A DNA stretch of 64,000 nucleotides from Prochlorococcus sp. AG-347-J19 (lineage in GTDB: Bacteria > Cyanobacteriota > Cyanobacteriia > PCC-6307 > Cyanobiaceae): NCBI GenBank assembly GCA_003279015.1, contig QCBV01000004.1, forward strand, positions 1 through 64,000, read 5' to 3'. The notes under the pieces were generated by a model. It saw only the letters and a program-made list of their open reading frames with translations. It was not told the origin of the DNA and ran no database searches. Shown one piece after another: positions 7,066-34,376 of this stretch (within the stretch, counting starts at the first letter, position 1; the number at the start of each line of letters is the position of its first letter). A program made the translations under genes and the position numbers.

Positions 7066-7374
7066 TTCTCGAAAGATAAAAAATTTTTTTCTAAATTTTT
7101 CAATACTGTTTAGTGAATTTTAAAAAGAAAATAACTTTTGATTGATAACAATAGATAGATTTAATTTTAGAAATTCTGAATTAATTTTTTTATTAATAAA
7201 TTTACTTATTACATTTTTTTTAAGTATTCCAGAAGAAATTTTGAAATTAATTGTACTTTTTCTTTATAAATACATCGTGTCTTATAAACTATTAAGAAAG
7301 TACATTGATTTTCTCACTTTTAAATTCAATTAAAAATAATATAGGAGATAAATAATAAGTAAAAATTAGATATC
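7066..7374. other. Intergenic stretch without a supported gene
   Basis: About 310 bases between the acyltransferase and the convergent dioxygenase. It is almost pure A/T runs. A TTG-started reading frame of 63 codons (7142-7333) encodes a hydrophobic peptide, but hydrophobic peptides arise easily in such composition. It has no ribosome binding site, and I recognise no family. No GC-rich hairpin terminator was seen. It probably holds only the 3' ends of both transcripts. Confidence 0.5.
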
Positions 7375-8205
7375 TTAGTCAAAATAAAACCATAATAGAT
7401 GCCTTTCTCCACTTTCAATTAATGAGCCGTGATGTATACCTCTGGAATCAAATATAGACAAATCTCCTTTTTTCATTAAAAATAAGCTTTTTTTATTAAT
7501 AAGATAATCTCTTATTATTTTTTTAGGAAGGAACTGTTTCTGGCCTTTAACAATTCTTTTTTCATATATCCAAGTTAAAAAATAACACAATAATAAGTCA
7601 AAATTAAAAAATTGAGTACTTGCTAAGTAAGAAGTAGGACCATTATTTTTAGAAACATCTTCTAGTGCAATTACAAATTTCAATTGATGCCTGTAGGAAT
7701 CAATATGGGGATGTCCAGCAAAAATAAGTTGATTTTTGCTCATGGAGCTAGTAAAAGATTCCATCCATGAAATTTTTGGATTTTTAAAACTATATGTTGA
7801 ATAGATCGCCTTAAGTTTATTGTATTTTGTTAGCTCTTCTATCTCTTGAGTAGGTTTTTTTGTAAATCTATATCTTATTGATCCTTCAATTTCTTTTTTT
7901 AAAATAGATGATTTATTTTTTTTATTATTTTTATACTTTAAAAGTAATTTCTTTAATTTTTCAACTTCATTTTCATCAAGATATCCATTTTCAATAAAAA
8001 ATCCATTTCTTTTTAGACTTGCATAATTAAATTTTCGAGAACCAAAATTTATTATTGAATCTTTTGTTAAATGAACAAAAAATATATTTAGTTCTTCTGA
8101 AATTAATTCTAAAAGGAATAAGGGAAAGAAAATCCAAGTCCACTTGATGTGGTTTGGAATAACCTTTCTCTCGCTCTGGAATTCAATTGGAATATTTTTT
8201 TTCAA
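7375..8205 (-). CDS. Phytanoyl-CoA dioxygenase (PhyH)-like Fe(II)/2-oxoglutarate oxygenase
   Basis: A 276-residue protein with the metal triad of the PhyH superfamily: HxD at H167/D169 (in HPHIDSY), a distal His near 258-259 in SRGIHHGS, and a following Arg (R268) that would bind 2-oxoglutarate. Between them lie VIALEDVSKNNGPTSYLAST and KKGDLSIFDSRG, the usual family core. The N-terminal 65 residues contain a hydrophobic stretch (about 22-37), possibly a membrane anchor. Expected reaction: hydroxylation of an unidentified small molecule or glycan residue. It is a single-gene transcript facing the acyltransferase. A second PhyH-like domain occurs in the fusion at 9107. Confidence 0.75.
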   Translation of the reverse strand: MKKNIPIEFQSERKVIPNHIKWTWIFFPLFLLELISEELNIFFVHLTKDSIINFGSRKFNYASLKRNGFFIENGYLDENEVEKLKKLLLKYKNNKKNKSSILKKEIEGSIRYRFTKKPTQEIEELTKYNKLKAIYSTYSFKNPKISWMESFTSSMSKNQLIFAGHPHIDSYRHQLKFVIALEDVSKNNGPTSYLASTQFFNFDLLLCYFLTWIYEKRIVKGQKQFLPKKIIRDYLINKKSLFLMKKGDLSIFDSRGIHHGSLIESGERHLLWFYFD

Positions 8206-9106: not shown

Positions 9107-10864
9107 ATGAGTTTGGATGATTCAGGTTACAAATTAATAAAGTCATTTTTCTCTAAAGAAGAAGTTAAAGCTTTAAAAAATTTGCAAGAAAATTCATTCC
9201 CAAGTTATTCATCAGGGTTAACTGATTTTGGTCAATTATCAAGAAATAATCCTTATTTTCAGGAAGTTTTTTTTGATAAAGCAAGAAAAACTAGATTCGA
9301 TGGAGTGCCTTTAGCTCATAGAATTTTTCGTGGTCAAGGTAGCCCTGATTTAAATCAAAATCCTAATATTCTATATGGCAAGAGGGCAAGTAGAAGGATT
9401 GTTAATCTACCTGAAGCTTATGATAAATATATTTTCAATAAGAAATTACTAAGTGAGGTTAGCAATTGCCTTAAAGAAGATTCATTATATTTTAATTTGG
9501 CTTCAGCAAATAGAGTTTATCCAAAGTTTGATGGATACACTAATTTATTTCACATTGACACATACGGTTTTACAAAAAATGATCAGACAATTACAGATAA
9601 ATATCTAATTAACATGATTATCTATATAAATGGTACTGATTGTGGCAGATGTGGGACTAAAATTTTTCCTTATTCTCAAAATTGGTATCACGATATGAAT
9701 TTAAGGGTTGCTAAATCTTTAGGATTAAGTAGTGAAATTAACAGGATTCATCAAAGAGAACTATATACGGAATTATTTTCTGAAAAAGAGTTAGAAAAAA
9801 TGATCACAATAGAAGCATCACCTGGGGATGTTTTATTATTTAGATCTGATCTTATACATACAATACCAAAAAATAATTCAAGCGAACTACATAGAGATGT
9901 AATAATTGCAAACTTTAGTGATACAAAAGATTTTAAAAAACCTTACTCTCAAACTGATGCAAAAAAAATTATTAAACGCATCGAAAAAATAGATAATTTG
10001 AGTTTTGCTTATTCAAAAATTAATAAAAACCCTTTAAGTAAAGAAAAAATTAAAAAAAATTATAATAATGCAAAAAACTTAGTTAAAAAAGGATTTACTA
10101 AATTAAATCTTATTAAGTGTTCTTATCTTAAAAGTAAAAAAGACATCAAAAACTTAGAAATTGTAAATTTAGGCGCTGGGCCAAGATTTTTTCAGAAGGA
10201 CGTTATTTCACTAGACCTTATAGACTCTCCTGAGAAGATTGGATATAGAACCAAAATAATTACAGATGTAAATTTTGATTTATCTTCTAATAAACCATTG
10301 CCTTTTTTAGAATCTAGATTAAGAGGAATTTATACGTCTCATTGTATTGAACATTTAACCTTAGATCAATCTTATGAATTGTTTAAAGAATGTTTTAGAG
10401 TTTTAAAAAGTGATGGTATCTTTAGAATTATAGTCCCATCAATAAAGTTATATTTTGATAAATATGATAAAAGAGATTTATCTTTCTTCAATTGGATAAG
10501 AAATAAATCAGTTTATAAATTTGATTCTTGGTTAAGATTTATAGTAAGAGAATTTGCTGGCCCGGTTGTTGATGATTTTGAAGATAAAGAATTGCTTGAA
10601 TTGTATAAATCTAAATCAATGAATCAATTTATAAAATACTTTAATGAATTATCTAATAAATGTAATGATCCTAATAAGAATATCCCTGATATCCATAAAA
10701 GTGGTTGGACAACTGACTCATTGATTAAAACTTTAAAAGAAATAGGCTTTTCAAAAGCATATGTATCGAAAAGACATGGAAGCAAGTTTCCAGCTTTTTC
10801 AAGGAAATCAGTTTTTGATAATTCGCGCCCAAATATTAGTATTTATGTAGAGGCTTCAAAATGA
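9107..10864 (+). CDS. Fusion: PhyH-like 2OG oxygenase plus SAM methyltransferase
   Basis: A 585-residue two-domain protein. Residues 1-275 form a PhyH-like Fe(II)/2-oxoglutarate oxygenase, with HxD at H149/D151 (FHIDTYG), a distal His 251 in SDLIHTIPKN and a basic residue near 263. A Lys-rich linker (about 280-350) leads to a class I methyltransferase with motif NLGAGP (354-359), SHCIEHL (411-417) and a RVLKSDGIFRIIVPS strand, as in Methyltransf_11 proteins of glycan loci. A sequential oxidation and methylation of one glycan substrate is a plausible but unproven role. Its stop overlaps the start of an FkbM methyltransferase (ATGA), so the two are translationally coupled. Confidence 0.8.
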   Translation: MSLDDSGYKLIKSFFSKEEVKALKNLQENSFPSYSSGLTDFGQLSRNNPYFQEVFFDKARKTRFDGVPLAHRIFRGQGSPDLNQNPNILYGKRASRRIVNLPEAYDKYIFNKKLLSEVSNCLKEDSLYFNLASANRVYPKFDGYTNLFHIDTYGFTKNDQTITDKYLINMIIYINGTDCGRCGTKIFPYSQNWYHDMNLRVAKSLGLSSEINRIHQRELYTELFSEKELEKMITIEASPGDVLLFRSDLIHTIPKNNSSELHRDVIIANFSDTKDFKKPYSQTDAKKIIKRIEKIDNLSFAYSKINKNPLSKEKIKKNYNNAKNLVKKGFTKLNLIKCSYLKSKKDIKNLEIVNLGAGPRFFQKDVISLDLIDSPEKIGYRTKIITDVNFDLSSNKPLPFLESRLRGIYTSHCIEHLTLDQSYELFKECFRVLKSDGIFRIIVPSIKLYFDKYDKRDLSFFNWIRNKSVYKFDSWLRFIVREFAGPVVDDFEDKELLELYKSKSMNQFIKYFNELSNKCNDPNKNIPDIHKSGWTTDSLIKTLKEIGFSKAYVSKRHGSKFPAFSRKSVFDNSRPNISIYVEASK

Positions 10865-14945: not shown

Positions 14946-15821
14946 ATGTATAAATATTTTCTTAAAGCTAGTGAAAAAATGATTTATATTATTTATCGAA
15001 AAATTTATATAAAATCACCCAAAACTGCTTTAATATTTAAGTATAACTTTATAATAAGAATCCTCCTTTTTTTAAAACCAAAAAGATATGAGTATTTGGA
15101 TGTAGTTTTTAGCGATTCGGAAGTTAGATCTGAATTGAAGTTGCCAAGAGTTAAAACTTCAAAGATTGAATTATACAAAAACTTTAATTCCAAAAAAAAA
15201 TTAGCAAGATTTTCTAGAATAATTGCAATTGGTCCTGCTTCTGAATACGACAAAATTCTTAAAGAAATTTCTGATAAATATAACGCTGTAGTTCTTAATA
15301 AAATATATCCAAATTTTATGAAATATAAAATACCTCATGTATATATTTTAAATAATTCTTGGTCTAAAAAAAATATTGATCTTATAAGAGAAGTTTACTT
15401 AAAACAAAAAAAATCTATAATATGTACTCCATTTAAAACCGAATATAGTTACGACTATTCTCCAATCTTAAAAAATTATACAGATAAGCCATTTGGTATA
15501 TCTCCTATGGGATTGCAAAGAATTCTTCTTTCTCTTCCGCATATAATTGATCATGAATATCTTAAAATAGTTGGCTATAATTTATCTTTATCTTCCAATC
15601 CATATTCCACAAAATATCCATCTTTAATAAAGGCAAATTGGGGATCCGAAAGAAAAGGAATTTTCTTATCAAATATGATACATTGCTTTGTATTTAATTT
15701 TGCATTGACAAGAAGAATTATTCAAGATTATCCTTTTAAAATCGAATATAACTCCCTTGAAGGTTTAATAGATAAACATTTTAAATACTCATTAAGAAAG
15801 TTTATTTCAATTTATAGTTGA
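14946..15821 (+). CDS. Unrecognised protein, possible sialyltransferase-like enzyme
   Basis: A 291-residue basic protein without a sure family. After about 70 residues with a hydrophobic patch it shows RIIAIGPASEYDKIL, a strand-GPS/A-loop layout seen in DUF115/MptE-like and bacterial GT42 sialyltransferase-like proteins. Later PMGLQRILLSLPHI is followed by YLKIVGYNLSLS, matching the P-x-G and I-x-G-Y/F-D pattern of those proteins. It lies 25 bases after an ABC exporter and faces the nonulosonic-acid locus, which needs such a transferase. The sialyltransferase-like reading is inference. Confidence 0.4.
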   Translation: MYKYFLKASEKMIYIIYRKIYIKSPKTALIFKYNFIIRILLFLKPKRYEYLDVVFSDSEVRSELKLPRVKTSKIELYKNFNSKKKLARFSRIIAIGPASEYDKILKEISDKYNAVVLNKIYPNFMKYKIPHVYILNNSWSKKNIDLIREVYLKQKKSIICTPFKTEYSYDYSPILKNYTDKPFGISPMGLQRILLSLPHIIDHEYLKIVGYNLSLSSNPYSTKYPSLIKANWGSERKGIFLSNMIHCFVFNFALTRRIIQDYPFKIEYNSLEGLIDKHFKYSLRKFISIYS

Positions 15822-15838
15822 AGATTTTAAAAATATTG

Positions 15839-17023
15839 TTATTTTGAGGCCTGATTTAAAATATTTTTAATAGTCATTGCATATTCAAAAATTTCACTTG
15901 TATTAATTGTAGGGTGAACAAGAAACATCAAGCTTGTCTCTCCAAGTTGCTTTGCGTTTTTAAGTCTTTTATATGAATGGGTGTTTTGTTTAGTGAAACA
16001 TTTTTCTAAATATATTTCGCTGCATCCTCCATGAAAAGCTGGGTAACCTTCCTCATTAATTTTTTTAATTATTTTATCTCTATTCCAATCAATATTTAAC
16101 ATTTCTAATTTTAAATAGCAGTAAAATTTGTAATATGCGTGAATAATATTTTTTGAAACTTTTGGAATCCTAATAAGTTCACAATCTGACAAGCACTCTA
16201 AAAGAATATTTGCATTTCGATTTCGAATTTCTATCCATTCATTTAAATTCTTTAATTGAATAATTCCTATTGAACTTTGCATTTCGGTAATTCTATAGTT
16301 TGATCCAATCGATTCATGTAGCCATCTAAATCCAGGATTATGTTCATTATTAAATACTATCTCATAATCTTTCCCATGATCTTTGTAGGACCAGACTTTT
16401 TGCCAGATTTTTTTGTTACTGGTAGTTACCATTCCACCCTCGCCACCTGTAGTGATTATTTTATCCTGACAAAAACTCCAGGTTGAGACATCTCCAAAAG
16501 ATCCAACTGATTTGAATTGATTTTTGTATAGTACTTTTGCTCCATGAGCTTGGGAACAATCCTCGATTAGAAAAAGACCATTTTTTTTTGCAATCAAACT
16601 TATCTCTATTACATCTGCAGGCCATCCAGCAAAATGTACGATACTTATGGCTTTCGTCTTTTTGGTTATATATTTTTCTATTTCTTTTGAATTAATATTC
16701 CCAGATTCATTATCAACATCAATAAAAATAGGGATTGCTCCCAAAGTAATAGCGGCTGTTGAAGTTGCTAAAAATGTTCTTGAGGTAGTAATTATTTCGT
16801 CACCTTGCCCGATTCCACAAGCCCTATATGCAAGCTCCAGTGCCACGGTTCCATTAGATACAGCAGTTGCATATTTCGTTTGGACATATTTTGCAAATTC
16901 TTTTTCAAACTTTTTTGTCTTCTCGCCAGTCCAATAATTTACCTTCCCACTTTTAAGAACCTCAGACACAGCATTTATTTGATTTTCATCAAAATACGGC
17001 CATGGAGATAAAGTTCTTTTCAT
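15839..17023 (-). CDS. DegT/DnrJ/EryC1/StrS family PLP-dependent sugar aminotransferase
   Basis: A 394-residue fold-type I aminotransferase. The PLP lysine is K188 in FCQDKIITTGGEGG, the cofactor-stacking EDCSQAHGA is at 154-162, and VSNGTVAL at 55-62 binds the phosphate. The length fits PseC/LegC/PglE-type enzymes, which aminate 4-keto sugars made by 4,6-dehydratases. It is the last gene of a minus-strand unit with a 2-hydroxyacid dehydrogenase and a CMP-sugar synthetase, and is divergent to NeuB. A role in making the amino sugar precursor of a nonulosonic acid is likely, but perosamine-type synthesis is an alternative. Confidence 0.92.
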   Translation of the reverse strand: MKRTLSPWPYFDENQINAVSEVLKSGKVNYWTGEKTKKFEKEFAKYVQTKYATAVSNGTVALELAYRACGIGQGDEIITTSRTFLATSTAAITLGAIPIFIDVDNESGNINSKEIEKYITKKTKAISIVHFAGWPADVIEISLIAKKNGLFLIEDCSQAHGAKVLYKNQFKSVGSFGDVSTWSFCQDKIITTGGEGGMVTTSNKKIWQKVWSYKDHGKDYEIVFNNEHNPGFRWLHESIGSNYRITEMQSSIGIIQLKNLNEWIEIRNRNANILLECLSDCELIRIPKVSKNIIHAYYKFYCYLKLEMLNIDWNRDKIIKKINEEGYPAFHGGCSEIYLEKCFTKQNTHSYKRLKNAKQLGETSLMFLVHPTINTSEIFEYAMTIKNILNQASK

Positions 17024-17083
17024 TAATTATAAAATTTCTAAACTATTAAAATAATAGATCAAATAAATTTAATTGGTTAATTT

Positions 17084-18037
17084 CTATAATAAATTCATGT
17101 GGTTCTTTAAAAGCTCTGCTGCTCTAAAGTAAGCTATTGATTGAGCTTCTGTAGTCATCCCAGCAATATGAGATGTTATAAGAACTTGATTATTGTTTTT
17201 AGAAAAATTTATGATTGAACTTGAATCATGATTAGTGAATTCGCCTTCAAGAACATCTGTGGCATATTTCATTTTGGGATTCTGAATAAGTTTATTTTGT
17301 AGAGATTTTTCGTCAACTATTTCGCCTCTAGAGGTATTAACAATTAAAACATCAGATTTACATTTTTTTAGAAAATCATTATCAATTAGGTGAATAGTTT
17401 CTTTATTTACATGTGCATGTATTGAAATAATATCAGAATTATAGGCTATTTCTTGTAATGTTTTTACTCTTTTAATTCTGGGATGTACTACATCTTTATA
17501 TGGGTCATAAACGAATATTTCTGAACCAAAGGCATCACAATAGTTGGCATAAAATTTTCCTAATCTTCCATAACCTATTATGCCAACTTTTAACTCAGAA
17601 AGTTGTCTCCCAATAAATGGAAGATAACTCCAGTTATTTTTTTTTACCGAATCAAAAGAAGATGGTATGTTTCTTAATGCAGACAATGTTAAAGCTAAAG
17701 CATGTTCTGCTGTACTAGAAATTTTATTTATTGTATCTCTTTCTTCAGTTATTGAAATTATCTTTATACCTCTTAATTTGGATTCTTCTTTGTCAATATG
17801 GTTTGTACCTGTTGATGCTGTACAGACAACACTCAAATTAGGAAACAAATCAAATATGAATTTATCTATATTAAAAGTAAGTTGATTTGGATTTGTAAAG
17901 ATTGCATCAATTTCTTCGGAATAATTTAAATTTTCTTTTTCGCAAGTTTCCAACATTATCAATTCAAAATCTTTTTTTAAATACTTAACAAGACCCTCAA
18001 TATGCGAAATTGGAGTTGTAATTAAAAGTTTAGACAT
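17084..18037 (-). CDS. D-isomer-specific 2-hydroxyacid dehydrogenase, NAD-binding
   Basis: A 317-residue dehydrogenase with the NAD motif VGIIGYGRLG (about 151-160), catalytic Arg in NTSRGEIVDE and the catalytic His in SHIAG. This is the family of phosphoglycerate and hydroxypyruvate reductases. Its start overlaps the end of the CMP-sugar synthetase by 8 bases and it precedes the aminotransferase, so it belongs to the nonulosonic-acid unit rather than to central serine synthesis. Its substrate could be a 2-hydroxy or 2-keto acid sugar in that pathway. Such dehydrogenases do occur next to neuA/neuB in other bacteria, but I know no defined reaction. Confidence 0.85.
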   Translation of the reverse strand: MSKLLITTPISHIEGLVKYLKKDFELIMLETCEKENLNYSEEIDAIFTNPNQLTFNIDKFIFDLFPNLSVVCTASTGTNHIDKEESKLRGIKIISITEERDTINKISSTAEHALALTLSALRNIPSSFDSVKKNNWSYLPFIGRQLSELKVGIIGYGRLGKFYANYCDAFGSEIFVYDPYKDVVHPRIKRVKTLQEIAYNSDIISIHAHVNKETIHLIDNDFLKKCKSDVLIVNTSRGEIVDEKSLQNKLIQNPKMKYATDVLEGEFTNHDSSSIINFSKNNNQVLITSHIAGMTTEAQSIAYFRAAELLKNHMNLL

Positions 18038-18755
18038 TTTTTTTCATTATTTGATCAGCTACTATCAAATCATATTCGTTATCAATATTAATAGATTTCT
18101 CGAATGGCATTAAGTAGGCAAAACTATTTTTCCCTCCAAATCTTAATTTATCCTCCATTAAATACTTTCTTGAAAGAACATAAATTGATCCATTTCTAAT
18201 GTAAGCATAAGGTTTAAGATCTTGCCTTCTGCCTGATCTCTCTGGCACACAAAAATCATATATTTTGCCATTTACTATCTTCTTTAATCTTGCTGGGTGA
18301 TATTCTTCAACTTTGGAAACACCTATAATAGAATCTGCTTTTTTGTTTATAAGCATTTCAATACAATTATCAATGTCAATAGTCTGCTTCAATGGGTTAG
18401 TGCACATTAATTCAACAAAAATATCATAAGGAGTATCATTCTGTTTCTTTTCGCAAAATTTAACTGCATGAATTAATGCATCTGTTGAGGAGGCCTTATC
18501 TGAGGAAAGATATTTTGGTCTTACAAAAGGTACATCTGCCCCCATTTTTAAACAATGAGATTTAATCTCATCATCATCTGTGGAGATAATGTATCTATCA
18601 ATATATTTACTTTTTAAAGTTTCTTGAATTGTATGATTTATTAAAGGTTGACCAGCAACTTTTTGAAGATTTTTTTTCTTAATCCCCTTGGATCCTCCTC
18701 TTGCTAAAGTTATTGCTAAAACTCTTTTATCAAGTATTGTCATCTCGATATTCAA
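18030..18755 (-). CDS. neuA: CMP-nonulosonic acid (sialic acid) cytidylyltransferase
   Basis: A 241-residue NeuA/PseF-type enzyme. The CTP-binding motif ITLARGGSKGIKKKNL is at about 15-30. It also has GQPLINHTI, TDDDEI (metal-binding strand), a conserved FVELMCTNPLK and IDNEYDL near the end. Reaction: CTP plus nonulosonic acid gives CMP-nonulosonic acid and pyrophosphate, in the cytoplasm. It is the first gene of a minus-strand unit and is divergent from neuB across 115 bases. Which acid it uses (neuraminic, legionaminic, pseudaminic or other) cannot be seen. Confidence 0.88.
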   Translation of the reverse strand: MNIEMTILDKRVLAITLARGGSKGIKKKNLQKVAGQPLINHTIQETLKSKYIDRYIISTDDDEIKSHCLKMGADVPFVRPKYLSSDKASSTDALIHAVKFCEKKQNDTPYDIFVELMCTNPLKQTIDIDNCIEMLINKKADSIIGVSKVEEYHPARLKKIVNGKIYDFCVPERSGRRQDLKPYAYIRNGSIYVLSRKYLMEDKLRFGGKNSFAYLMPFEKSINIDNEYDLIVADQIMKKNV

Positions 18756-18841
18756 CGAGAATAATATTTAAGCATATCACTAAATAAATACAAAATCATG
18801 AAAAGTGTTTAATAATTAAAAGAAAAATGATAATTTGTAAA

Positions 18842-18874
18842 ATGAAAAAAACATTGGCAATAGAAGTTCAATGA
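18842..18874 (+). promoter_or_regulatory. Possible 10-codon leader peptide overlapping the neuB start
   Basis: ATG at 18842 opens a frame reading MKKTLAIEVQ whose TGA (18872-18874) overlaps the neuB ATG as ATGA, the same junction used between most genes of this operon. A GATAAT hexamer at 18829-18834 could be the -10 box. This may be a true leader that couples translation into neuB, or chance in A-rich DNA. No pause codons or hairpin support attenuation. Confidence 0.2.
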
Positions 18875-19929
18875 AGATAGGATCCAAAGAAATTAATGCA
18901 ACATCTCAAACTTATTTTATTGCTGAAATAGGTTCTAATTTTGATGGATCACTTAAAAGGGCATTAAAATTAATTGATATAGCAAAGGATTCAGGAGCTG
19001 ATGCTGTAAAGTTTCAACACTATACTGCTTCTTCTCTAGTAAGTGATATTGGATTTAAAGCTTTAGGAAATAATTTAGGTCATCAAAAAAAATGGAGTGG
19101 CTCAGTATATGAAATTTATGATCAAGCATCACTTAATAAAGAATGGACTAAAGAACTTCAAGAATATTCAAAACAGAAAGGATTAGATTTCTTAACAAGT
19201 CCATATTCAAAAGAATTGATAGACTCTACTATCGAATATCTTGATGCTATAAAAATTGGATCAGGAGATATTACTTGGATAGACATTATAGAGTATGCTG
19301 CCAGACAAAAAAAACCAATACTACTTGCCACAGGGGCCTCAAATATTGATGAAGTAGACTTAGCAGTTGGTGCTATTCAAAAATTTACAAATGAGTATTG
19401 CATTATGCAATGTAATACTAATTATGAAGGTAAAAAAATTGACTTTAAATATCAGAATTTAAGAGTTCTTGAAGAATTCTCGTCCAGATATCCAAATGCA
19501 ATATTAGGACTTAGTTGTCATATGCCAGGACATTTAAGTGTTTTAGCAGCAGTTACTCTTGGCGCAAGAATTATTGAAAAGCATTTTACAGATGATAATT
19601 CAAGATCTGGGCCTGATCATGGCTTTGCAATTGATCCAAATGCTTGGGAAAAGATGGTTAGTGAGACAAGAGATCTAGAAATATTGTTGGGTAACAGATC
19701 AAAAAAGATTGAAGAAAATGAGTCAGAAACTTCTATAGTTCAAAGACGTGCAATTAGAATTAATGAAGGATGCAAAGCAGGTCATACAATTAGAGAGGAG
19801 GATTTAACAATTTTGAGACCTTGTCCAAAAAATGCTATTAAACCATCGGATAAGAATAAAATTATTGGGAAAAAGATTATTAATGATATGAATAAAGGCG
19901 ATTTAATTACTTTCGAAAACTTATCATAA
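18871..19929 (+). CDS. neuB: Nonulosonic acid synthase (NeuB), full length with SAF domain
   Basis: A 352-residue PEP-dependent synthase. The N-terminal TIM barrel has YFIAEIGSNFDGSL, DAVKFQHY, the IKIGSGDI strand, IMQCNTNYE, and LSCHMPG with IIEKHFTDD (Mn and PEP sites). The last 65 residues form an SAF/antifreeze-like domain with RRAIRINEGCKAG. Reaction: a hexosamine-type sugar plus PEP gives a nine-carbon nonulosonic acid. It opens a five-gene plus-strand operon (gap of 6 bases to the next gene) and is divergent from neuA. Full length and intact; a second, shorter homologue is at 26924. Confidence 0.95.
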   Translation: MKIGSKEINATSQTYFIAEIGSNFDGSLKRALKLIDIAKDSGADAVKFQHYTASSLVSDIGFKALGNNLGHQKKWSGSVYEIYDQASLNKEWTKELQEYSKQKGLDFLTSPYSKELIDSTIEYLDAIKIGSGDITWIDIIEYAARQKKPILLATGASNIDEVDLAVGAIQKFTNEYCIMQCNTNYEGKKIDFKYQNLRVLEEFSSRYPNAILGLSCHMPGHLSVLAAVTLGARIIEKHFTDDNSRSGPDHGFAIDPNAWEKMVSETRDLEILLGNRSKKIEENESETSIVQRRAIRINEGCKAGHTIREEDLTILRPCPKNAIKPSDKNKIIGKKIINDMNKGDLITFENLS

Positions 19930-19935
19930 CAATCA

Positions 19936-20931
19936 ATGATTAGAACACTAATTACGGGTGCTGCAGGGTCTGTAGGGAAATCCTTAACTTTACAACTTCT
20001 TAAAGAAGGACAAACAGTTTGTGCTTTTGATAATAGTGAAGATGCATTATTCAAATTGCGTAAGAGTGTAAAAGATAAAAATTTAGATGAAAACCTTAGA
20101 GATTTTCTTGGAGATATAAGAGATTTATCTAGACTAAGAATGGCTCTAAAAGGTTGTGATGAGGTTTATCATTGTGCTGCTTTAAAGCATGTTGGAATTT
20201 GTGAATATAATCCATTTGAATCAATTCAAACAAATATATTAGGAACAAATAATGTTGTCTCAGCATGTATTCAAGAAAATATAAAGAAAGTAATCCTTAC
20301 TAGTAGTGATAAAGCCGTCAATCCAACAAGTATGATGGGATCTTCAAAGTTAGTTGCTGAGAAAATTTTTATTGCAGCAAATAATATAACTGGTTTAAAT
20401 CAAACAAAATTTGGAGTTGTTCGTTTCGGTAACGTATGGAATACGAATGGTTCTGTTGGGAGAATTTTCTCGGCGCAGATCAATAAAAATCAAGACCTTA
20501 CTATAACCGATAAAAATATGACAAGATTTTTCATTAAAATGCAAGATGCTTTAGATTTATGCAGGCATGCAATGCGAAATCTTATAGGAGGAGAGATATT
20601 TACAAGAAGTATGGGTGCTATTTCAATAGGTGATTTAGCAGAAGCTTTTTTAAAAAATAAACCTAATCTTACATACAAAATTATTGGTAGAAGCAATGGA
20701 GAAAAATTATTTGAAGAATTATTTACTGATTTTGAAGCTGCAAGAAGTTATAAAGAAAATCATACTTATATTACTATCCCCGAGCGCTATAATTTTGGTT
20801 CAAATTTAAATGACCAAATTGAGCTGAAATATAAAAATGCAATTAAATGCAAATATGCTCTTCGCTCGGACTCTCCTGAAGTAGAAAAAATAGATCCTAA
20901 TTTTTTATTAAATGAAACTTTAAATCTATGA
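19936..20931 (+). CDS. CapD/PseB-type nucleotide-sugar 4,6-dehydratase (short form)
   Basis: A 331-residue extended SDR of the Polysacc_synt_2 family, without the membrane part of full CapD. It has NAD motif TGAAGSVG (7-14), SSDKAVNPTSMMGSSK containing the catalytic Met-x-x-x-Lys that replaces Tyr-x-x-x-Lys in this family, and FGNVWNTNGSVGRIF. PseB/FlaA1-type enzymes convert UDP-GlcNAc to a 4-keto-6-deoxy sugar. Position between neuB and an unknown gene suggests it makes the first precursor of the nonulosonic acid. The following gene overlaps by 4 bases. Confidence 0.88.
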   Translation: MIRTLITGAAGSVGKSLTLQLLKEGQTVCAFDNSEDALFKLRKSVKDKNLDENLRDFLGDIRDLSRLRMALKGCDEVYHCAALKHVGICEYNPFESIQTNILGTNNVVSACIQENIKKVILTSSDKAVNPTSMMGSSKLVAEKIFIAANNITGLNQTKFGVVRFGNVWNTNGSVGRIFSAQINKNQDLTITDKNMTRFFIKMQDALDLCRHAMRNLIGGEIFTRSMGAISIGDLAEAFLKNKPNLTYKIIGRSNGEKLFEELFTDFEAARSYKENHTYITIPERYNFGSNLNDQIELKYKNAIKCKYALRSDSPEVEKIDPNFLLNETLNL

Positions 20932-21644
20932 ATAACAAGGATGAATTATTAAGGTCTTATCAAGAAGTATTTGATGATTATCTTAAAAAAGATAATATTA
21001 CTAAATTTGATTTGCAAAATTCATTAAAAATATTTGAAAAAGAATCCGTAAAAAAAGGTAAACCAATACCAAAAGACCTAGAAGTTGTTGGTTTAATATC
21101 TGGAATATCATTTCCTTATGATTTCGTTGAAAATATTATAAAAGTGCAGTCAGAAATCTCGAATATTCTTGGAAAAACCCTCCACTATATGGTTAAACCA
21201 AATAATCTTGCAGTTGAATATTGTGTTTTAAAATGGCCCGACCAAAAATATGAAGAAAATTGTGAAAAAGAAGTTATTGCTAAGCTAAAGAATATGAAGA
21301 TAAAAAAGTTTAAATTATTTGTTTATGGATTTCAATTTCATAAAGATGGGTGTATGCTTTTGCAAGCTATTAGTGAAGAATTACAAATTAATAGAATAAG
21401 GAAGTTTTTAAGGGATAATATTGATTCCTTGCCAGAAAAACAATCGAATTGGTCACACATACCTTTAGGAAGATTTCTAGGCCCTTTTAATAAAGAAGAT
21501 AAAAAATTAATTGATCAAAAAATAAAAAATTTTAATCAAAACTTTAAACCTTTTTATACTGAAATAAATACTATTTATTTAGTACATGAACATAAGTGGT
21601 ACATGGAGAATATAGAAAAGATTTTTACTAAATATTTATTATGA
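20928..21644 (+). CDS. Unknown protein with possible 2H-phosphoesterase (LigT-like) fold
   Basis: A 238-residue soluble protein that I do not firmly recognise. Its strand/helix order and WSHIPLGRFLGPF near residue 182 resemble the second H-x-T/S motif of 2H phosphoesterases (typical HxTLGR). KKFKLFVYGFQFHKDGCMLLQA and a final NTIYLVHEHKWYM strand also fit that fold. The equivalent of the first motif seems to read VEYCVLKW, without His, so classical two-His catalysis is doubtful. It overlaps both neighbours by 4 bases inside the neuB operon, which points to a role in nonulosonic-acid synthesis. The fold call is tentative. Confidence 0.5.
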   Translation: MNNKDELLRSYQEVFDDYLKKDNITKFDLQNSLKIFEKESVKKGKPIPKDLEVVGLISGISFPYDFVENIIKVQSEISNILGKTLHYMVKPNNLAVEYCVLKWPDQKYEENCEKEVIAKLKNMKIKKFKLFVYGFQFHKDGCMLLQAISEELQINRIRKFLRDNIDSLPEKQSNWSHIPLGRFLGPFNKEDKKLIDQKIKNFNQNFKPFYTEINTIYLVHEHKWYMENIEKIFTKYLL

Positions 21645-22405
21645 GTTTTGAAAATTATTTAGAAGATAAAATCATCATAGTCACTGGTGCCCTTGGCAAG
21701 TTGGGACAAAATCTATGCAATAATCTTAATAATGCAAATGCTAATGTTATAGGTATTGGAAGATTAAAAAATAAGAATAAAGAATTAATAAAAAAAATTT
21801 CCTCCTTTTGTGATTTATATGATTGCGATGTATCTAATGAATTGGATTTCAAAAATATAATTTCTCAAATTAAAAAGAAATATAAAAAAATTGATGGTTT
21901 AGTTACGGCAACTTCTTTTAGGCCAATGAAATTAGGACTTGATGATTCAATTAAAAATTGGACTGAGTCCATTTCAATAAATAGTTCAGCAATTTTTATA
22001 CCTTGTCGGTGTATTGGGAAAATTATGTGTAATCAAAAATTCGGTTCTATCGTTAATGTCAGTTCTATATATGGATTAGGAGCACCTTTGCCAAATCTCT
22101 ATGAAGGAACAGATCTAAAGACAGAACCTGATTATCCTTTCATTAAAGGGGGTACCATAGCATTTACAAAATATTTAGCATCTTTTTTTGGCGAATATAA
22201 CGTTAGGGTAAATGTTATAACTCCTGGTGGAATATTTAATAATCAACCAGAAGTTTTTTTAAACAATTACTCAAAGAGAGTACCATTGCAAAGATTGGCT
22301 TTTGAGGATGAAGTTTCTAATTCAATAATATATTTACTGAGCGATCATTCAACGTATATAACTGGAGCAACAATTCCTATAGATGGTGGCTGGAGTGCAA
22401 CTTAG
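21641..22405 (+). CDS. Short-chain dehydrogenase/reductase (SDR)
   Basis: A 254-residue classical SDR. It has cofactor motif VTGALGKLGQN (about 14-24), DGLVTATS, catalytic Ser in IVNVSSIYG, Tyr-x-x-x-Lys as YPFIK, and the end motif STYITGATIPIDGGW. An insertion between the Ser and Tyr (about 12 residues with YEGTDLKTEPD) is typical of SDRs in nonulosonic-acid and flagellar glycan loci, such as PtmA of Campylobacter. It overlaps the unknown gene before it and precedes an SpsF-like enzyme by 10 bases. Substrate unknown; probably a keto sugar or keto acid of this pathway. Confidence 0.88.
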   Translation: MSFENYLEDKIIIVTGALGKLGQNLCNNLNNANANVIGIGRLKNKNKELIKKISSFCDLYDCDVSNELDFKNIISQIKKKYKKIDGLVTATSFRPMKLGLDDSIKNWTESISINSSAIFIPCRCIGKIMCNQKFGSIVNVSSIYGLGAPLPNLYEGTDLKTEPDYPFIKGGTIAFTKYLASFFGEYNVRVNVITPGGIFNNQPEVFLNNYSKRVPLQRLAFEDEVSNSIIYLLSDHSTYITGATIPIDGGWSAT

Positions 22406-22415
22406 ATTTTGTTAA

Positions 22416-23189
22416 ATGGATAAAACTAAATCAGACAAATTAATCTTTACTTGTTTTATTCAAGCTAGGATGAATTCAAGTAGACTCCCGAATAAAGTTT
22501 TAAAACCGATCTTAAAAAAAACCGTCTTAGAAACAGTTGTTGAGAGGGTGAAAAAGTCTAGATATTTAAATAAAGTTATTGTTTTAACTTCAACATCTAA
22601 AAAAGATGATGAAATATTTAATTTCTGTAAACAAAACTTTTTAGAATGCTTTAGGGGGGAAGAAGACAATGTTCTTTTGAGATTTTATTCAGCATCGCTT
22701 ATCTATAAATCAGATTACTATATAAGAATCAATGCAGATTGTCCTTTTATTGACTGGAACTTAATCGATCTAGCTATAGAAATCGCATTTAAAAATAAAA
22801 TTTATGACTATATATCAACAATACTTTCCAATTCATTCCCTACTGGTCAGCACATTGAGCTATTTAAAAGTTTAACTCTTCATACTGCAAATAAATTTGC
22901 AACAAATCCTCTTGAGAGAGAACACGTTACACCTTACATTTACAATAATAAAGATAAATTTAAAATTTATCCCATGGTTTCGGATATTAATGAAAGTTCT
23001 TTAAGATTAACTATTGATTATCCTGAAGACTTAGTAATGTGCCGTGAATTGATGAAAAAGTCTTCTAATGATATCCCTTCTTTTAATGAGATTAAAAATA
23101 TACTTAAAAGATATCCAGAAATCAAATTAATAAATAGTTCTTTCACTAAATCTCAATTTATTAATATTAATAATCAAATAGCAAATTAA
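22416..23189 (+). CDS. SpsF-like cytidylyltransferase
   Basis: A 257-residue nucleotidyltransferase of the SpsF/CMP-KDO synthetase family, with IQARMNSSRLPNKVLKPI (about 11-28), RINADCPFIDW (metal-binding Asp) and LRLTIDYPEDL. SpsF was named in Bacillus spore coat polysaccharide synthesis and often sits beside neuB-like genes. It is the last gene of the operon starting at neuB. Two cytidylyltransferases in one locus (also neuA at 18030) suggest either two CMP-activated acids or division of labour. Confidence 0.85.
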   Translation: MDKTKSDKLIFTCFIQARMNSSRLPNKVLKPILKKTVLETVVERVKKSRYLNKVIVLTSTSKKDDEIFNFCKQNFLECFRGEEDNVLLRFYSASLIYKSDYYIRINADCPFIDWNLIDLAIEIAFKNKIYDYISTILSNSFPTGQHIELFKSLTLHTANKFATNPLEREHVTPYIYNNKDKFKIYPMVSDINESSLRLTIDYPEDLVMCRELMKKSSNDIPSFNEIKNILKRYPEIKLINSSFTKSQFININNQIAN

Positions 23190-26923: not shown

Positions 26924-27730
26924 TTGAACACTAAATTAATAGCTGAAATAGGTTGGAATCATATGGGTAATTTAAATATTGCTGAGAAAATGATAATTAA
27001 AGCAAAAGAATCTGGTGCGCATTACGCAAAATTTCAAACTTGGTCAGTTGAAAGATTAAAAAATGGATCTTGGGACAATGATGGTAGAAGAGAAATTTAT
27101 ATTTCTGCTGAATTATCTAAAGAAAAACATAAGTCATTAATATCATTATGTAATAAAAATGATATCGATTTCTTTTCTTCTGCTTTTTCTATTCCTGATG
27201 CTGAACTATTAAAAGATCTAGGGGTAAATATTATAAAAATACCAAGTTTTGAAATAGGCAATAATGAACTTTTGAATTACTGTAAGGAAAATTTTGATCA
27301 GATTTATATTTCTACTGGTACTTCAACTTGGGATGAAGTCAAAAACTTAAAAAACATTTTTAAGGACCTCTCTCAAATAGTAGTTATGCATTGCGTATCT
27401 GCATATCCTTGCAATGCAGAAGTTATAAATTTACCAAAAATAAATTATTTAAAAGAGGAATTCCCTTTTGTTGGCTTTAGTGATCATACGCAGGGTATAG
27501 AGATATCAAAAATTGCATTGACTTACAACATTAAAGCATTAGAAAAACACTTTACTATAGATAAAGATCTGCCAGGAAGAGATAATAAATTTGCGATTTT
27601 ACCAGATGAATTAAATCACATAAGTGATTTTTGTGAAACTCTTCAAAAGTCAAATAATTTTAAGGGATTAGATTATCAAGAATGTGAGTTAGATTCAAGG
27701 AATAACTACAGGGGGCGATTTGATGGCTAA
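26924..27730 (+). CDS. Short NeuB-family synthase lacking the SAF domain
   Basis: A 268-residue second NeuB homologue starting at TTG. The TIM-barrel motifs are present: LIAEIGWNHMGNL, HYAKFQTW, IIKIPSFEI, VVMHCVSAYPC, FSDHTQGI and ALEKHFTID. It ends right after the barrel, without the C-terminal SAF/antifreeze domain that in NeuB lids the partner's active site. Thus it is either a specialised aldolase-type synthase or needs another partner. It overlaps the next GT2 gene by several bases. Loss of the domain by 3' truncation is possible, but the barrel looks intact. Confidence 0.85.
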   Translation: MNTKLIAEIGWNHMGNLNIAEKMIIKAKESGAHYAKFQTWSVERLKNGSWDNDGRREIYISAELSKEKHKSLISLCNKNDIDFFSSAFSIPDAELLKDLGVNIIKIPSFEIGNNELLNYCKENFDQIYISTGTSTWDEVKNLKNIFKDLSQIVVMHCVSAYPCNAEVINLPKINYLKEEFPFVGFSDHTQGIEISKIALTYNIKALEKHFTIDKDLPGRDNKFAILPDELNHISDFCETLQKSNNFKGLDYQECELDSRNNYRGRFDG

Positions 27731-28391
27731 AACAACAGTCATAATAAGAGTTAAAAATGAAGCGGACTGGATCGGCCATGCAATACAAAGCGTTATTGAC
27801 AAGATTGAAAACTCAAAAATAATAATTGTAGATAATTCTTCTGAAGATAATAGTATTAACATAGCAAAATTGTTTAAACATGATACTTCAATCCCCGACT
27901 CTAAAAGATATGTCGATTTAGACATTATAAATATTGAAAATTATTCTCCAGGTAAAGCAATAAATCAGGCGGTTAATTTAGTTAGTAGTCCCACAGTATT
28001 ACTACTATCTAGCCATTGTGAGCTTACAGAATATTCAGAGAATTTAGTTGAAGAACTTCTTAAAGAAAATGTTGCAGTATTTGGGAAACAGATTCCAAGA
28101 TACTTTGGTAAAAGAATAGTTCCAAGATATATCTGGTCGCACTACACTGGAGAAAGAACCCTAAATATGTTTTCTAAACTAGAAAATAGATATTTTATGC
28201 ACAATGCATTTTGTGCTTTCGAAACTAATTATTTAAAAAATAATCCATTTAATGAAAACTTAGTCGGAAAAGAAGATAGGTATTGGGCTGAAAATGTTGT
28301 TAAAGGGGGTAAGACATATCTTTACGAACCTACATTAATTTGCCAACATCACTACACTTCAGATGGAAATACTTGGCGAGGGGTTGATTAA
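27723..28391 (+). CDS. Family 2 glycosyltransferase
   Basis: A GT2 enzyme of about 222 residues. It has TTVIIRVKNEADWIGHAI (N-terminal nucleotide strand), IIIVDNSSEDNS, and a late VGKEDRYWAENVVKGGKTYLYEP acceptor/catalytic region. The DXD position reads LLSSHCEL, so metal binding may differ from the standard. ATG at 27723 is preferred over TTG one codon earlier. The start lies inside the end of the short NeuB gene, indicating translational coupling and perhaps transfer of the sugar that NeuB makes. No CMP-synthetase lies beside it, so this link is inferred. Confidence 0.8.
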   Translation: MAKTTVIIRVKNEADWIGHAIQSVIDKIENSKIIIVDNSSEDNSINIAKLFKHDTSIPDSKRYVDLDIINIENYSPGKAINQAVNLVSSPTVLLLSSHCELTEYSENLVEELLKENVAVFGKQIPRYFGKRIVPRYIWSHYTGERTLNMFSKLENRYFMHNAFCAFETNYLKNNPFNENLVGKEDRYWAENVVKGGKTYLYEPTLICQHHYTSDGNTWRGVD

Positions 28392-28403: not shown

Positions 28404-30290
28404 ATGTTTAAATTATTTGATTATTTGATATCTTTTAAGCTAAACAGAAGAATTATCTTGATAGTAATAGATGTTCTAAACATAATTCTTTCTTTTTGTA
28501 TTGCAATAAATTTTTTGCCAGAAATTTTTCTAAATTCAAATATGACAATTTTTTCTGGTTGTCTTTATTTTGTCATTTTAGGAATTTTAATTTTTATATT
28601 TACAAATCACTATAAAGGAATCACAAGGGCGATTGGAAGTCAAGATGTATATTTATTAGCATTAAGAACATTAGTTTTAGTAATTTCAGTATATTTTTTA
28701 TTGGCATTTTTAAATAAAGGAATACCTGATCAAAAATTCTTCATTTTAGTATGGCTTTTCATTACTATTTCAATTGGAGCTACAAGATTTATAATCCGAG
28801 ATATATTATTTATTTCAAGGAGAAGAAAAAAAGAAAAGAAAATTTCTGTTGTGATTTATGGAGCTGGTTCTGCTGGAGCTCAATTGGCAAATTCTTTATT
28901 AATGGATGGGAATTATAAAATAGTATTTTTTATAGATGATGATATCAGTTTGTCAGGTAGAAGTTTAAAAGGTATACCAATAATTAATCTTGATAAATTT
29001 GTTTGCCTTCCAAATATAGAAATTGATCATGTATTAATGGCAATTCCATCATTAAATAAGAAAAAGTTTAATTCAATAGTCTCTAAATTATATGGATTAA
29101 ATTTAAAGGTTTTAAGAGTTCCATCTTTGAGTGATTTAACCTCAGGAAGAGCAAAAATAGATAATTTATCACCTATTTCAATATACGATCTTTTATCAAG
29201 GCAGAATGTCAATTATATCAAAGAATTATATGGTCCTAAAATGAAGAATAAGTGCATTTGTATCACCGGTGCAGGAGGTTCAATTGGCTCAGAATTAAGT
29301 ATTCAAATACTTAAATTAAAACCATCTTCATTAGTTTTGATAGATCATGATGAATTTAGTTTGTATAAATTAAATCAAAAATTAATAAAAGAAAAAAGTG
29401 ATAATGTTGATTTATTTTTTAGATTAGGAAGTGCAACAAATAAAAAATTTATTTTTAATACTTTTAAAGAATTAAATGTTGATATAGTTTTTCATGCTGC
29501 AGCTTATAAACATGTTCCAATAGTTGAGTGCAATAAAATACAAGGTCTTTTGAATAATATATATTCAACCTATAATGTTTGTTCCAGTGCTGAACAATTA
29601 GAAATCAATAACGTAATTTTAGTATCCTCGGATAAGGCGGTTAGGCCTACAAATGTAATGGGTGCTAGTAAGAGAGTTTCTGAGTTGATAATCCAAGCAT
29701 ATGCTTATGAACAAAAGATTAATAAAAGAAATGAGAAAATTTCAAAAAAGTTCACTTCATTTTCCATGGTTAGATTTGGGAATGTATTAAATTCATCTGG
29801 TTCAGTAGTCCCTTTGTTCAAAGAGCAAATTGACAAGGGTGGTCCAATAACAATAACTCACAAAAATGTTCAGAGATATTTTATGACAATTGCAGAAGCG
29901 GCTGAATTACTCATTCAAACAGTTGAACTTTCTGAAGGAGGTGATTTATTCCTTTTAGATATGGGTAAACCAGTATTTATAAAAGATCTTGCCGAACAGA
30001 TGATTAGGTTGAGTGGTTTGAAGTTAAAGAAGTATGATAATGATAGTGGGGATATTGAGATAATTTATAAAGGATTACGTGAAGGTGAAAAATTATATGA
30101 GGAATTATTAATCGATTCAGATTCAGAAGAGACGATTCATCCTCTTATCTTTAGAGCACATGAAAAATATATAAAACCAGAAGTTTTATTTAAAAAAATA
30201 AAGACTCTACACGAGTTTTTATTGAATCAAAATGAATTAGATTCTTTAAAAGTTTTAAAAGAATTAGTACCAGAATGGAAAAACAATTAG
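28404..30290 (+). CDS. Full-length CapD/PglF/WbpM-type membrane 4,6-dehydratase
   Basis: A 628-residue protein with four N-terminal membrane helices (about 15-130). A CoA-binding-like Rossmann region follows, with VIYGAGSAGAQLAN, and then a C-terminal SDR with TGAGGSIGSEL (about 290) and SSDKAVRPTNVMGASKR holding the Met-x-x-x-Lys catalytic pair. It converts UDP-GlcNAc to UDP-4-keto-6-deoxy sugar for bacillosamine, FucNAc or QuiNAc. With a DegT aminotransferase and the PglC-type initiator nearby, a di-amino or amino-deoxy first sugar is plausible. It follows the GT2 gene by 12 bases. Confidence 0.94.
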   Translation: MFKLFDYLISFKLNRRIILIVIDVLNIILSFCIAINFLPEIFLNSNMTIFSGCLYFVILGILIFIFTNHYKGITRAIGSQDVYLLALRTLVLVISVYFLLAFLNKGIPDQKFFILVWLFITISIGATRFIIRDILFISRRRKKEKKISVVIYGAGSAGAQLANSLLMDGNYKIVFFIDDDISLSGRSLKGIPIINLDKFVCLPNIEIDHVLMAIPSLNKKKFNSIVSKLYGLNLKVLRVPSLSDLTSGRAKIDNLSPISIYDLLSRQNVNYIKELYGPKMKNKCICITGAGGSIGSELSIQILKLKPSSLVLIDHDEFSLYKLNQKLIKEKSDNVDLFFRLGSATNKKFIFNTFKELNVDIVFHAAAYKHVPIVECNKIQGLLNNIYSTYNVCSSAEQLEINNVILVSSDKAVRPTNVMGASKRVSELIIQAYAYEQKINKRNEKISKKFTSFSMVRFGNVLNSSGSVVPLFKEQIDKGGPITITHKNVQRYFMTIAEAAELLIQTVELSEGGDLFLLDMGKPVFIKDLAEQMIRLSGLKLKKYDNDSGDIEIIYKGLREGEKLYEELLIDSDSEETIHPLIFRAHEKYIKPEVLFKKIKTLHEFLLNQNELDSLKVLKELVPEWKNN

Positions 30291-33922: not shown

Positions 33923-34376
33923 TAGAAAAACTAATTTAGTATTTGATTGGGTTTTAGTAGATGAACTTGCTGTTGGCGTTGCTCCAACTAAGGAAGAAAA
34001 TGTAATTTTCTTAAAGAAAAAAGGAATTTCTTCAATATTAAGTCTTTGTAGTAATGAGGAGGCAAGACTTCCTCAAGAACTGGATAAAAATTTTAAATGT
34101 GAGAGGTTTTTCTTGCCAGATCATAAAACAGCGAAGGCTCCAACTATTGAAGACCTTAGATCTGCTTTAAATATTTTGAATCTTCTTACTAAGGAAGGGC
34201 CTGTTTTTGTTCATTGTGTTGCCTCAATAGAAAGATCTCCTTTACTATGCATGGCTTTCTTAAAAAATAATCTAGGTTTAACTTCTCGAGAAGCTTATGA
34301 ATATTTGGTGCAAGTTCATAGTATTTCTAATCCATTGCCATCTCAGTTAAAGTTACTTGATGAAATAAAAAACTAA
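33915..34376 (+). CDS. Dual-specificity-type protein tyrosine phosphatase
   Basis: A 153-residue phosphatase with the P-loop HCVASIERSP (about 100-109), that is HC-x5-R. An upstream acidic residue in FLPDHKTAKAP can serve as the general acid. The fold is of the DSPc/PTP type, not the low-molecular-weight Wzb or the PHP-type Wzh that usually accompany Wzc. It overlaps the Wzc gene by 8 bases, so it probably dephosphorylates the Tyr cluster of Wzc. The Ser/Thr after Arg is Ser, as expected. Confidence 0.87.
   Translation: MDNRKTNLVFDWVLVDELAVGVAPTKEENVIFLKKKGISSILSLCSNEEARLPQELDKNFKCERFFLPDHKTAKAPTIEDLRSALNILNLLTKEGPVFVHCVASIERSPLLCMAFLKNNLGLTSREAYEYLVQVHSISNPLPSQLKLLDEIKN

Follow-up and report, generated by a model that had tools for sequence, protein, structure and literature searches.

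A conserved three-gene module in a Prochlorococcus nonulosonic-acid locus, with a 2H-fold protein as candidate for the missing UDP-releasing step

The eight genes at 15839–23189 of the window (the whole 64,000-nucleotide stretch of Prochlorococcus sp. AG-347-J19 DNA analysed here) are parts of three modules joined together, not one pathway. The core of the first module is a triad on the forward strand (18871–21644), encoding a NeuB-type synthase (NeuB1), a short dehydratase and a protein with a predicted 2H-phosphoesterase fold, and followed by genes for an SDR and an SpsF-like cytidylyltransferase. The triad is contiguous, with its order kept, in ten out of ten distinct loci from four phyla; no title describing it was listed in searches of the open-licence PMC literature. 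The 2H-fold protein is the best candidate for the missing UDP-releasing step.

All eight open reading frames are present, with the places and families given in the preliminary description (ORF positions; Pfam and NCBIfam searches). They form the two divergent, overlapping units reported there, separated by a 115-bp gap (18756–18870) and with internal gap lengths of 60, −8, 6, −4, −4 and 10 bp. Adjacent to them, a possible transferase is encoded at 14946–15821; its predicted structure has a pLDDT of 40.7 and its profile has no PDB match.

The pseudaminic acid pathway comprises PseB, C, H, G, I and F, and the legionaminic acid pathway LegB, C, H, G, I and F, with PtmA/PtmF. The lack of a UDP-sugar hydrolase and an N-acetyltransferase, first noted for the locus, extends to the whole source genome (G000; 1,592,054 bases in 20 contigs, 96.33% complete). 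Searches of G000 returned no match to NeuC/LegG/WecB (PF02350) and nothing over the cut-off for PseG (a partial match of 31.3 bits, cut-off 153.55), PseH (35.9 bits, cut-off 93.1) or the NeuD/NnaD/LegH acetyltransferases (at most 57.7 bits, cut-off 160.8). The proposal of an altered nonulosonic-acid route came with a condition that would have counted against it, namely that G000 encodes a complete Leg/Pse/Neu pathway at another place; no such pathway was found, and an altered route is the best reading. No PseG or NeuC over the cut-off was found in six of the nine triad genomes searched; the named isolate Thiohalophilus thiocyanatoxydans DSM 16326 has the triad and neither of these two enzymes above cut-off. 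G149 (locus L005) and G154 (L010) have NeuC elsewhere in the genome, and G154 also has PseG. One of the 11 PF02350 matches, the 114-residue L023, was left untyped and kept out of the counts.

NeuB1 (18871–19929, forward strand) contains a NeuB domain (PF03102, 210.7 bits) and a SAF domain (PF08666), and scores under both NCBIfam cut-offs, with 250.3 of 399.65 bits for NeuB and 216.5 of 340.25 bits for PseI. The motifs GLS(C/D)H and EKHFTD are found in nine of the ten triad NeuBs, L009 having GISDH; their histidines, which we take to be metal-site residues, and the two domains place NeuB1 in the NeuB synthase superfamily. All nine triad rows that reach the site read SNFD, while the six other NeuBs have a histidine there (N-H). 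In a tree of 17 rows, none of them a characterised NeuB or PseI and with a long-branch warning from the tool, NeuB1 and the nine other triad NeuBs lie on one side of a branch with support 100/99. The short dehydratase (19936–20931, forward strand; PF02719, 278 bits) is a putative PseB/CapD-type UDP-HexNAc 4,6-dehydratase. Its best NCBIfam match is PseB, at 267.5 bits below the cut-off of 407.75, its PDB relatives are 6bwc and 2gn4, and the site TSSDKAVNP...MG..K is kept in all ten triads.

The third triad gene (20928–21644, forward strand) encodes 238 residues without a Pfam or NCBIfam match at E 0.001. Its AF2 model (pLDDT 83.7) superimposes on 1vdx with a VIA-align Z of 16.6 and an rmsd of 2.4 over 172 aligned residues; Foldseek gives a match at E 3.7e-6 and a profile search finds 2fyh at E 2.5e-5. 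By these matches, the protein has a 2H-phosphoesterase fold. His177, Arg182 and Glu97 are present in all ten triads, as is the replacement of the first-motif histidine by Ala or Gly, so that the first HxT reads (A/G)xE; the second motif is HxP, Thr being changed to Pro, again in all ten, and a WYME segment is conserved. The reading of motif 1 comes from profile alignments to 2fyh and L032, plus MAFFT; were it shifted by two residues, Glu97 would line up with the His and not with the Thr. L003, a relative outside the triads, retains the first-motif histidine. Having lost it, the triad protein may be inactive on phosphoesters. In LigT, as described in an excerpt of the source, a water molecule is coordinated by His125 and Arg130 (PMC5283653).

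The 2H family proper has 12 distinct loci, and the triad is missing only from L003/L076 and from the fragment L013, which was excluded from all alignments. L002, whose DNA coincides with a stretch of L009, was not counted as a locus, yet it forms a row in alignments A1 and A2. No relatives of the 238-residue protein were found in phages or plasmids, nor by patterns in viral_contigs. The weak Bacteroidota matches L032–L037 (22–28 bits) were rejected as family members; in L032, at least, the 2H motifs are of the generic kind.

A cytidylyltransferase lies near nine of the ten triads, and its companion is either a class III aminotransferase, with which it forms a fusion, or an SDR, or a Gfo/Idh enzyme. 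In the window the companion is a PtmA-like SDR (21641–22405, forward strand), whose best scores, 189.8 bits for PRK09186 and 132.8 bits for PtmA, are both below cut-off, that of PtmA in NCBIfam being 350; it is not assigned to PtmA. The SDR gene adjoins that of the SpsF-like cytidylyltransferase (22416–23189, forward strand; PF02348), a putative CMP-sugar synthetase, in the window and in L010; in L008 it is not adjacent to a cytidylyltransferase gene. The aminotransferase–SpsF fusion is found in L005, L006, L007, L012 and L038, its SpsF half being 29–37% identical to the SpsF of the window, and suggests that both enzymes act at neighbouring, late steps. The class III aminotransferase has C-6' sugar aminotransferases among its PDB relatives. 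In L005, a formyltransferase and an Antibiotic_NAT lie between triad and fusion, which fits what an amine product would need; no recognised N-acyltransferase was found among the scanned neighbours in L007, L012 and L038. L011, a 5.8-kb contig, has a Gfo/Idh enzyme but no aminotransferase, SDR or SpsF.

We infer from the genes, at somewhat less than even confidence, that the triad is a shortened route through a ketone, in which a sialic-acid-like sugar, a 7-keto-9-deoxy nonulosonic acid, is aminated or reduced late and then activated with CMP. The dehydratase would convert UDP-GlcNAc, or a similar UDP-HexNAc, to UDP-4-keto-6-deoxy-HexNAc, probably inverted at C5 as with PseB. The step that PseG or LegG carries out elsewhere would then fall to the 2H-fold protein, probably an RNA-type phosphoesterase that has been repurposed to free the sugar from its carrier nucleotide; His177 and Arg182 would hold the attacking water, like their LigT counterparts, and Glu97 would substitute for the lost catalytic pair of the first motif. 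NeuB1 would join PEP to the 4-keto sugar thus freed, giving 5-acetamido-7-keto-3,5,9-trideoxy-nonulosonic acid. Late finishing of the ketone would give a 7-hydroxyl through the SDR here, in which case neither an aminotransferase nor an acetyltransferase would be required, and a 7-amine through the class III aminotransferase in other genomes. Finally, SpsF would activate the product as a CMP-sugar, for use in a surface polysaccharide. The route is favoured by triad partners that act on carbonyls and accompany SpsF; we know of no 7-keto nonulosonic acids. Somewhat less likely, the triad represents a general, horizontally spread, ketone-first way to nonulosonic acids. UDP would then be released from a 4-keto sugar by a protein that descends from 2H RNA phosphoesterases and has kept one His, NeuB would accept the keto sugar itself, and C7 would be set late by enzymes that can replace each other (aminotransferase, SDR, Gfo/Idh), with 7-hydroxy-9-deoxy acids among the products.

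Three of the eight genes accompany, in other genomes, relatives of two genes that the eight-gene reading had left out: a second NeuB, NeuB2 (26924–27730, forward strand), which has PF03102 only and no SAF domain, and a large PglF/CapD-type dehydratase (28404–30290, forward strand; PF02719, 355.5 bits). NeuB2 is 50–55% identical to its copies in L010, L049 and L050 and forms one tree group with them (100/99). A D-2-hydroxyacid dehydrogenase (17084–18037, reverse strand; PF02826, 136.8 bits) is 48–51% identical to the copies in the same loci, and a PseF/NeuA-like cytidylyltransferase (18030–18755, reverse strand; PseF 126.3 bits, cut-off 205.7), with CMP-NeuAc synthetases as PDB relatives, 54–55%. 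A GT2-type glycosyltransferase (27720–28391, forward strand) stands beside the same three genes in L049 and L050, and in L010 as a longer relative with PF00535. The PseF-like transferase and the dehydrogenase accompany a SAF-less NeuB and GT2 in three of the four other loci examined, and by their neighbours are assigned to NeuB2 and GT2 and not to the triad. Of the genes proposed earlier as gap fillers, the unknown one is supported, as candidate for UDP release, and the 2-hydroxyacid dehydrogenase is not, since it accompanies the other NeuB.

The DegT aminotransferase (15839–17023, reverse strand) matches PDB 7l7x (E 4.1e-129, 434 bits) over residues 4–387, its full length, and the active-site segment WSFCQDKI is identical, which places it with the Pcryo_0638 type; its substrate is probably UDP-4-keto-6-deoxy-GlcNAc. 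A large CapD-type dehydratase lies near DegT in nine of the 11 neighbourhoods fetched, which represent the 13 non-own DegT genomes except G597 and G556, and NeuD is encoded immediately upstream in all four neighbourhoods tested. We rejected DegT as the aminotransferase of the triad, as it has its own partners; by its neighbours, it is assigned to the large dehydratase at 28404.

A single altered pathway made up of the whole set of eight, with the dehydrogenase and the unknown protein filling the gaps, is very improbable: the divergent genes are tightly packed, but the three modules each have a separate phyletic spread and their own partners, and gene content in related loci already contradicts joint action. 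It is improbable, if slightly less so, that DegT and the large dehydratase feed a Leg-like 4-amino intermediate to NeuB1, the 2H protein replacing LegG and the amine staying unacetylated. The cyanobacterial locus L075 does combine the same types of DegT and large dehydratase with NeuB, NeuC and NeuD, yet the triad has its own dehydratase, no DegT relatives were seen beside the other triads in the comparison of loci, and DegT was found in 14 of 181 family genomes, the 2H gene in 1 of 400.

More serious, though still unlikely, is that the 2H protein is a subunit for binding or regulation, or serves another step, UDP being removed by an unrecognised enzyme and an ordinary Pse- or Leg-like acid being made. 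The loss of the first His, together with the Pro that stands for Thr in the second motif, could mean that catalysis is lost, and the class III aminotransferase could use a UDP-sugar. However, His177, Arg182 and Glu97 are kept across the four phyla, the 2H gene is never apart from neuB and the dehydratase gene in triad loci, and beyond the triad no gene is common to all loci. We give slightly less weight to the SDR (and the Gfo/Idh enzyme of L011) supplying the precursor like PtmA/PtmF, with the 7-ketone kept or otherwise handled. PRK09186 and PtmA are the best named relatives of the SDR, and the legionaminic-type L075 has a PtmA-like SDR and a Gfo/Idh enzyme beside NeuC, NeuD and NeuB. The excerpted text of PMC4481668 places PtmA in the first part of the legionaminic pathway, the precursor segment, and the SDR of the window may therefore have a role other than ketone reduction. 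Against this, the triad SDRs (window, L008 and L010) are 46–48% identical to each other and only about 30% to that of L075, the gene adjoins SpsF in the window and L010, and the aminotransferase loci lack such an SDR within the stretches read.

The preferred, ketone-first reading bears on how nonulosonic acids arise without PseG, LegG and PseH, by supplying a compact, conserved module in which a specific protein, with its conserved residues, could be the missing hydrolase. If it is true, one class of nonulosonic acids would be overlooked or given a wrong name when products are predicted from genes. A published case is Shewanella oneidensis MR-1, with a flagellin nonulosonic acid despite having no clear PseH, PseG, PseI or PseF orthologues, according to the excerpted text of PMC3765264. 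Its sfmABCDE genes, likened here by description, include NeuB-domain SfmA and PtmA-like SfmC, but differ by a TPP enzyme, a methyltransferase and an ATP-grasp protein, with no 2H protein among the five as described in that excerpt (PMC3765264).

The window DegT is a close relative of Pcryo_0638, an enzyme of established function in the QuiNAc4NAc pathway (PMC8040287, in excerpt); unlike that pathway, G000 has no PglD/NeuD-type acetyltransferase over the cut-off, and DegT lies outside the triad. With the pseudaminic pathway, the window locus shares a PseB-type dehydratase, a NeuB-type synthase and a cytidylyltransferase, but G000 has no PseG or PseH over the cut-off, the PseC-type step is missing from the triad, NeuB1 and the short dehydratase score below the PseI and PseB equivalog cut-offs and every triad locus seen has the 2H-fold protein. 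Shared with the legionaminic type, as in L075, are NeuB, a cytidylyltransferase and a PtmA-like SDR, with DegT and the large dehydratase in the same window; L075 has a NeuC/LegG-type enzyme (PF02350, 361 bits) while G000 has neither NeuC/LegG nor NeuD/LegH, and the L075 NeuB is about 29% identical to NeuB1. With the 2H phosphoesterases (LigT and archaeal 2'-5' RNA ligase-like proteins), the triad protein shares the predicted fold and the second His, with an Arg five positions later; it differs in both HxT motifs, the WYME segment and the sugar-locus context, and the 2H fold would gain a new function if the proposal is true.

All eight genes of 15839-23189 are present with the families that the preliminary description gave them (ORF, Pfam and NCBIfam searches). 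The plus unit runs from NeuB1 (18871-19929), a synthase with a SAF domain, through a short PseB/CapD-type dehydratase (19936-20931), a 238-residue protein (20928-21644) and an SDR to SpsF, successive genes being separated by 6, −4, −4 and 10 bp. A second unit, on the minus strand, comprises a PseF-like enzyme, a 2-hydroxyacid dehydrogenase and DegT (gaps of −8 and 60 bp). The lack of a UDP-sugar hydrolase and an N-acetyltransferase was also borne out, but the eight genes do not form one altered nonulosonic-acid pathway, belonging instead to separate modules. The novel part of the locus is the triad of NeuB1, dehydratase and 238-residue protein, the last with a 2H fold.

The preliminary description called for a whole-genome search for PseG-, PseH- and NeuC-type genes; in this genome (1.59 Mb, 96.33% complete) none scored over its cut-off. 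PF02350, which covers NeuC and LegG, had no match, PseG a single partial one (31.3 bits, cut-off 153.55) and PseH one (35.9 bits, cut-off 93.1), while NeuD reached at most 57.7 bits (cut-off 160.8). At L075, a locus of a family relative (G583), NeuC (361 bits), NeuD (194) and NeuB (429) all exceed their cut-offs and adjoin PseF-like, SDR, Gfo/Idh, DegT and large-dehydratase genes; the searches therefore detect such enzymes where they are present. Among nine triad genomes, one (G154) has a PseG over cut-off, and PF02350 gives 11 matches in six; ten were typed, as eight WecB and two NeuC over cut-off (G149, G154), one fragment in G155 being left untyped. Neither PseG nor NeuC passes in six of the nine (G000, that of the window, G150, G151, G152, G153 and G156), an absence that is weak evidence in the several partial genomes; the genome G151 comes from an isolate, Thiohalophilus thiocyanatoxydans DSM 16326.

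The 2-hydroxyacid dehydrogenase occurs in four of 300 family genomes, its own included (E 1e-50). At L049, L050 and L010 it is contiguous with a PseF-like gene, a SAF-less NeuB2 and a GT2; L051, with a weaker relative, has no such four-gene contiguity. In the window this module is split between 17084-18755(−) and 26924-28391(+), and it looks like a separate ulosonic-acid route without a dehydratase. In known NeuBs the SAF domain assists binding of the N-acetyl group; since NeuB2 (26924-27730(+)) lacks this domain, its acceptor may lack an N-acetyl group.

DegT (15839-17023) has relatives in 14 of 181 family genomes. Eleven of their neighbourhoods were fetched: nine contain a relative of the large dehydratase (28404-30290 in the window), and seven a gene of 211-223 residues immediately upstream of DegT, a NeuD-type acetyltransferase in all four cases tested. 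No NeuD/PglD acetyltransferase over cut-off was found in the whole window genome. The best PDB match of DegT, by far, is 7l7x; the corresponding paper presents Pcryo_0638 as the aminotransferase for UDP-4-keto-6-deoxy-GlcNAc (PMC8040287). As a side observation, DegT and the large dehydratase would belong to a QuiNAc4N-type route.

Other genes of the window also deserve mention. The 291-residue protein encoded at 14946-15821, a candidate transferase, has no Pfam, NCBIfam or PDB match, and the quality of its structure model was too poor for use. Just one relative was seen (33% in the alignment); in L010 it immediately precedes the SDR, SpsF and NeuB1 genes. Within a polysaccharide locus, a 585-residue protein (9107-10864) combines a PhyH-like dioxygenase part with a weak methyltransferase part. 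At 31535-34376 the gene for a Wzz/BY-kinase-like protein precedes one for a dual-specificity phosphatase-like protein, and L073 has a related pair. The genes at 52975-55834 look like a set for NDP-heptose synthesis: they encode a GmhA-like isomerase, a GHMP kinase and a protein in which a nucleotidyltransferase is linked to a HAD phosphatase part.

A pattern scan of genome contigs yielded nine loci related to the triad. In eight, neuB, dehydratase and 2H gene directly follow one another in this order; L013, the remaining one, is a fragment that lacks neuB. L002 (G066, same genus as the window) is letter-for-letter contained in L009 and is not counted apart. A search of 369 genomes in G151's class added L038, which makes ten distinct triads, window included, in Cyanobacteriota, Bacteroidota, Pseudomonadota and Planctomycetota. 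This is a rare module: the 2H gene occurs in one of 400 family genomes (its own), two of 369 (one being the centre genome) and one of 172 (the centre), and matches in seven of 395 comprise the centre and six weak, generic 2H proteins. This rarity is compatible with horizontal spread. The triad NeuBs form one group in the tree (100/99), separate from the NeuB2s and a few others, and carry SNFD in place of the N-H signature; the dehydratase site TSSDKAVNP..xMG is conserved in all ten.

A cytidylyltransferase domain accompanies nine of the ten triads, the exception being L011 (contig of 5.8 kb), which has a Gfo/Idh enzyme. In L005, L006, L007, L012 and L038 a class III aminotransferase is fused behind the SpsF-type domain (Pfam on L006, NCBIfam on L038), the fusions being 57-76% alike over their full length; L009 stops inside a similar gene. 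The window, L008 and L010 have SDRs that are 46-48% alike. NeuB1 of L010 clusters with those of the aminotransferase loci (97/99), yet L010 has an SDR; partners have thus been swapped. Each of the three kinds of partner can act on a carbonyl, and two are located with SpsF; on this basis we propose that the triad product is a keto acid, finished late by the partner enzymes. A second NeuB is present in all three SDR-type loci, and none was seen beside the five aminotransferase-fusion loci in the neighbourhoods fetched. In L008, a NeuB-cytidylyltransferase fusion (6266-7924) lies immediately upstream of the triad. Between triad and aminotransferase fusion, L005 (6734-11730) encodes a DUF4910 protein, an adenylation enzyme, a formyltransferase and an Antibiotic_NAT, possibly for an unusual N-acyl group.

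The 238-residue protein has no Pfam or NCBIfam match. A profile built from 11 relatives, 10 of them distinct, matches 2fyh, listed as a 2'-5' RNA ligase-like protein, with an E-value of 2.5e-5. The AlphaFold2 model (nine alignment rows; pLDDT 83.7, pTM 0.80) superimposes best, by VIA-align, on 1vdx (Z 16.6, rmsd 2.4, 172 residues, 18% identity), and Foldseek gives 37 matches at E ≤0.001, mostly 2H-type proteins. In the ten triad proteins the first HxT motif is replaced by (A/G)xE and the second reads HxPLGR or HxPIGR, with an invariant Arg five residues past its His. A relative outside a triad, L003, with no NeuB-like ORF in its surrounding 17 kb, retains the His of motif 1 (HxE) and has HxS as motif 2. 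The second-motif His and the Arg of the triad proteins correspond to His125 and Arg130 of LigT, which coordinate the nucleophilic water there (PMC5283653).
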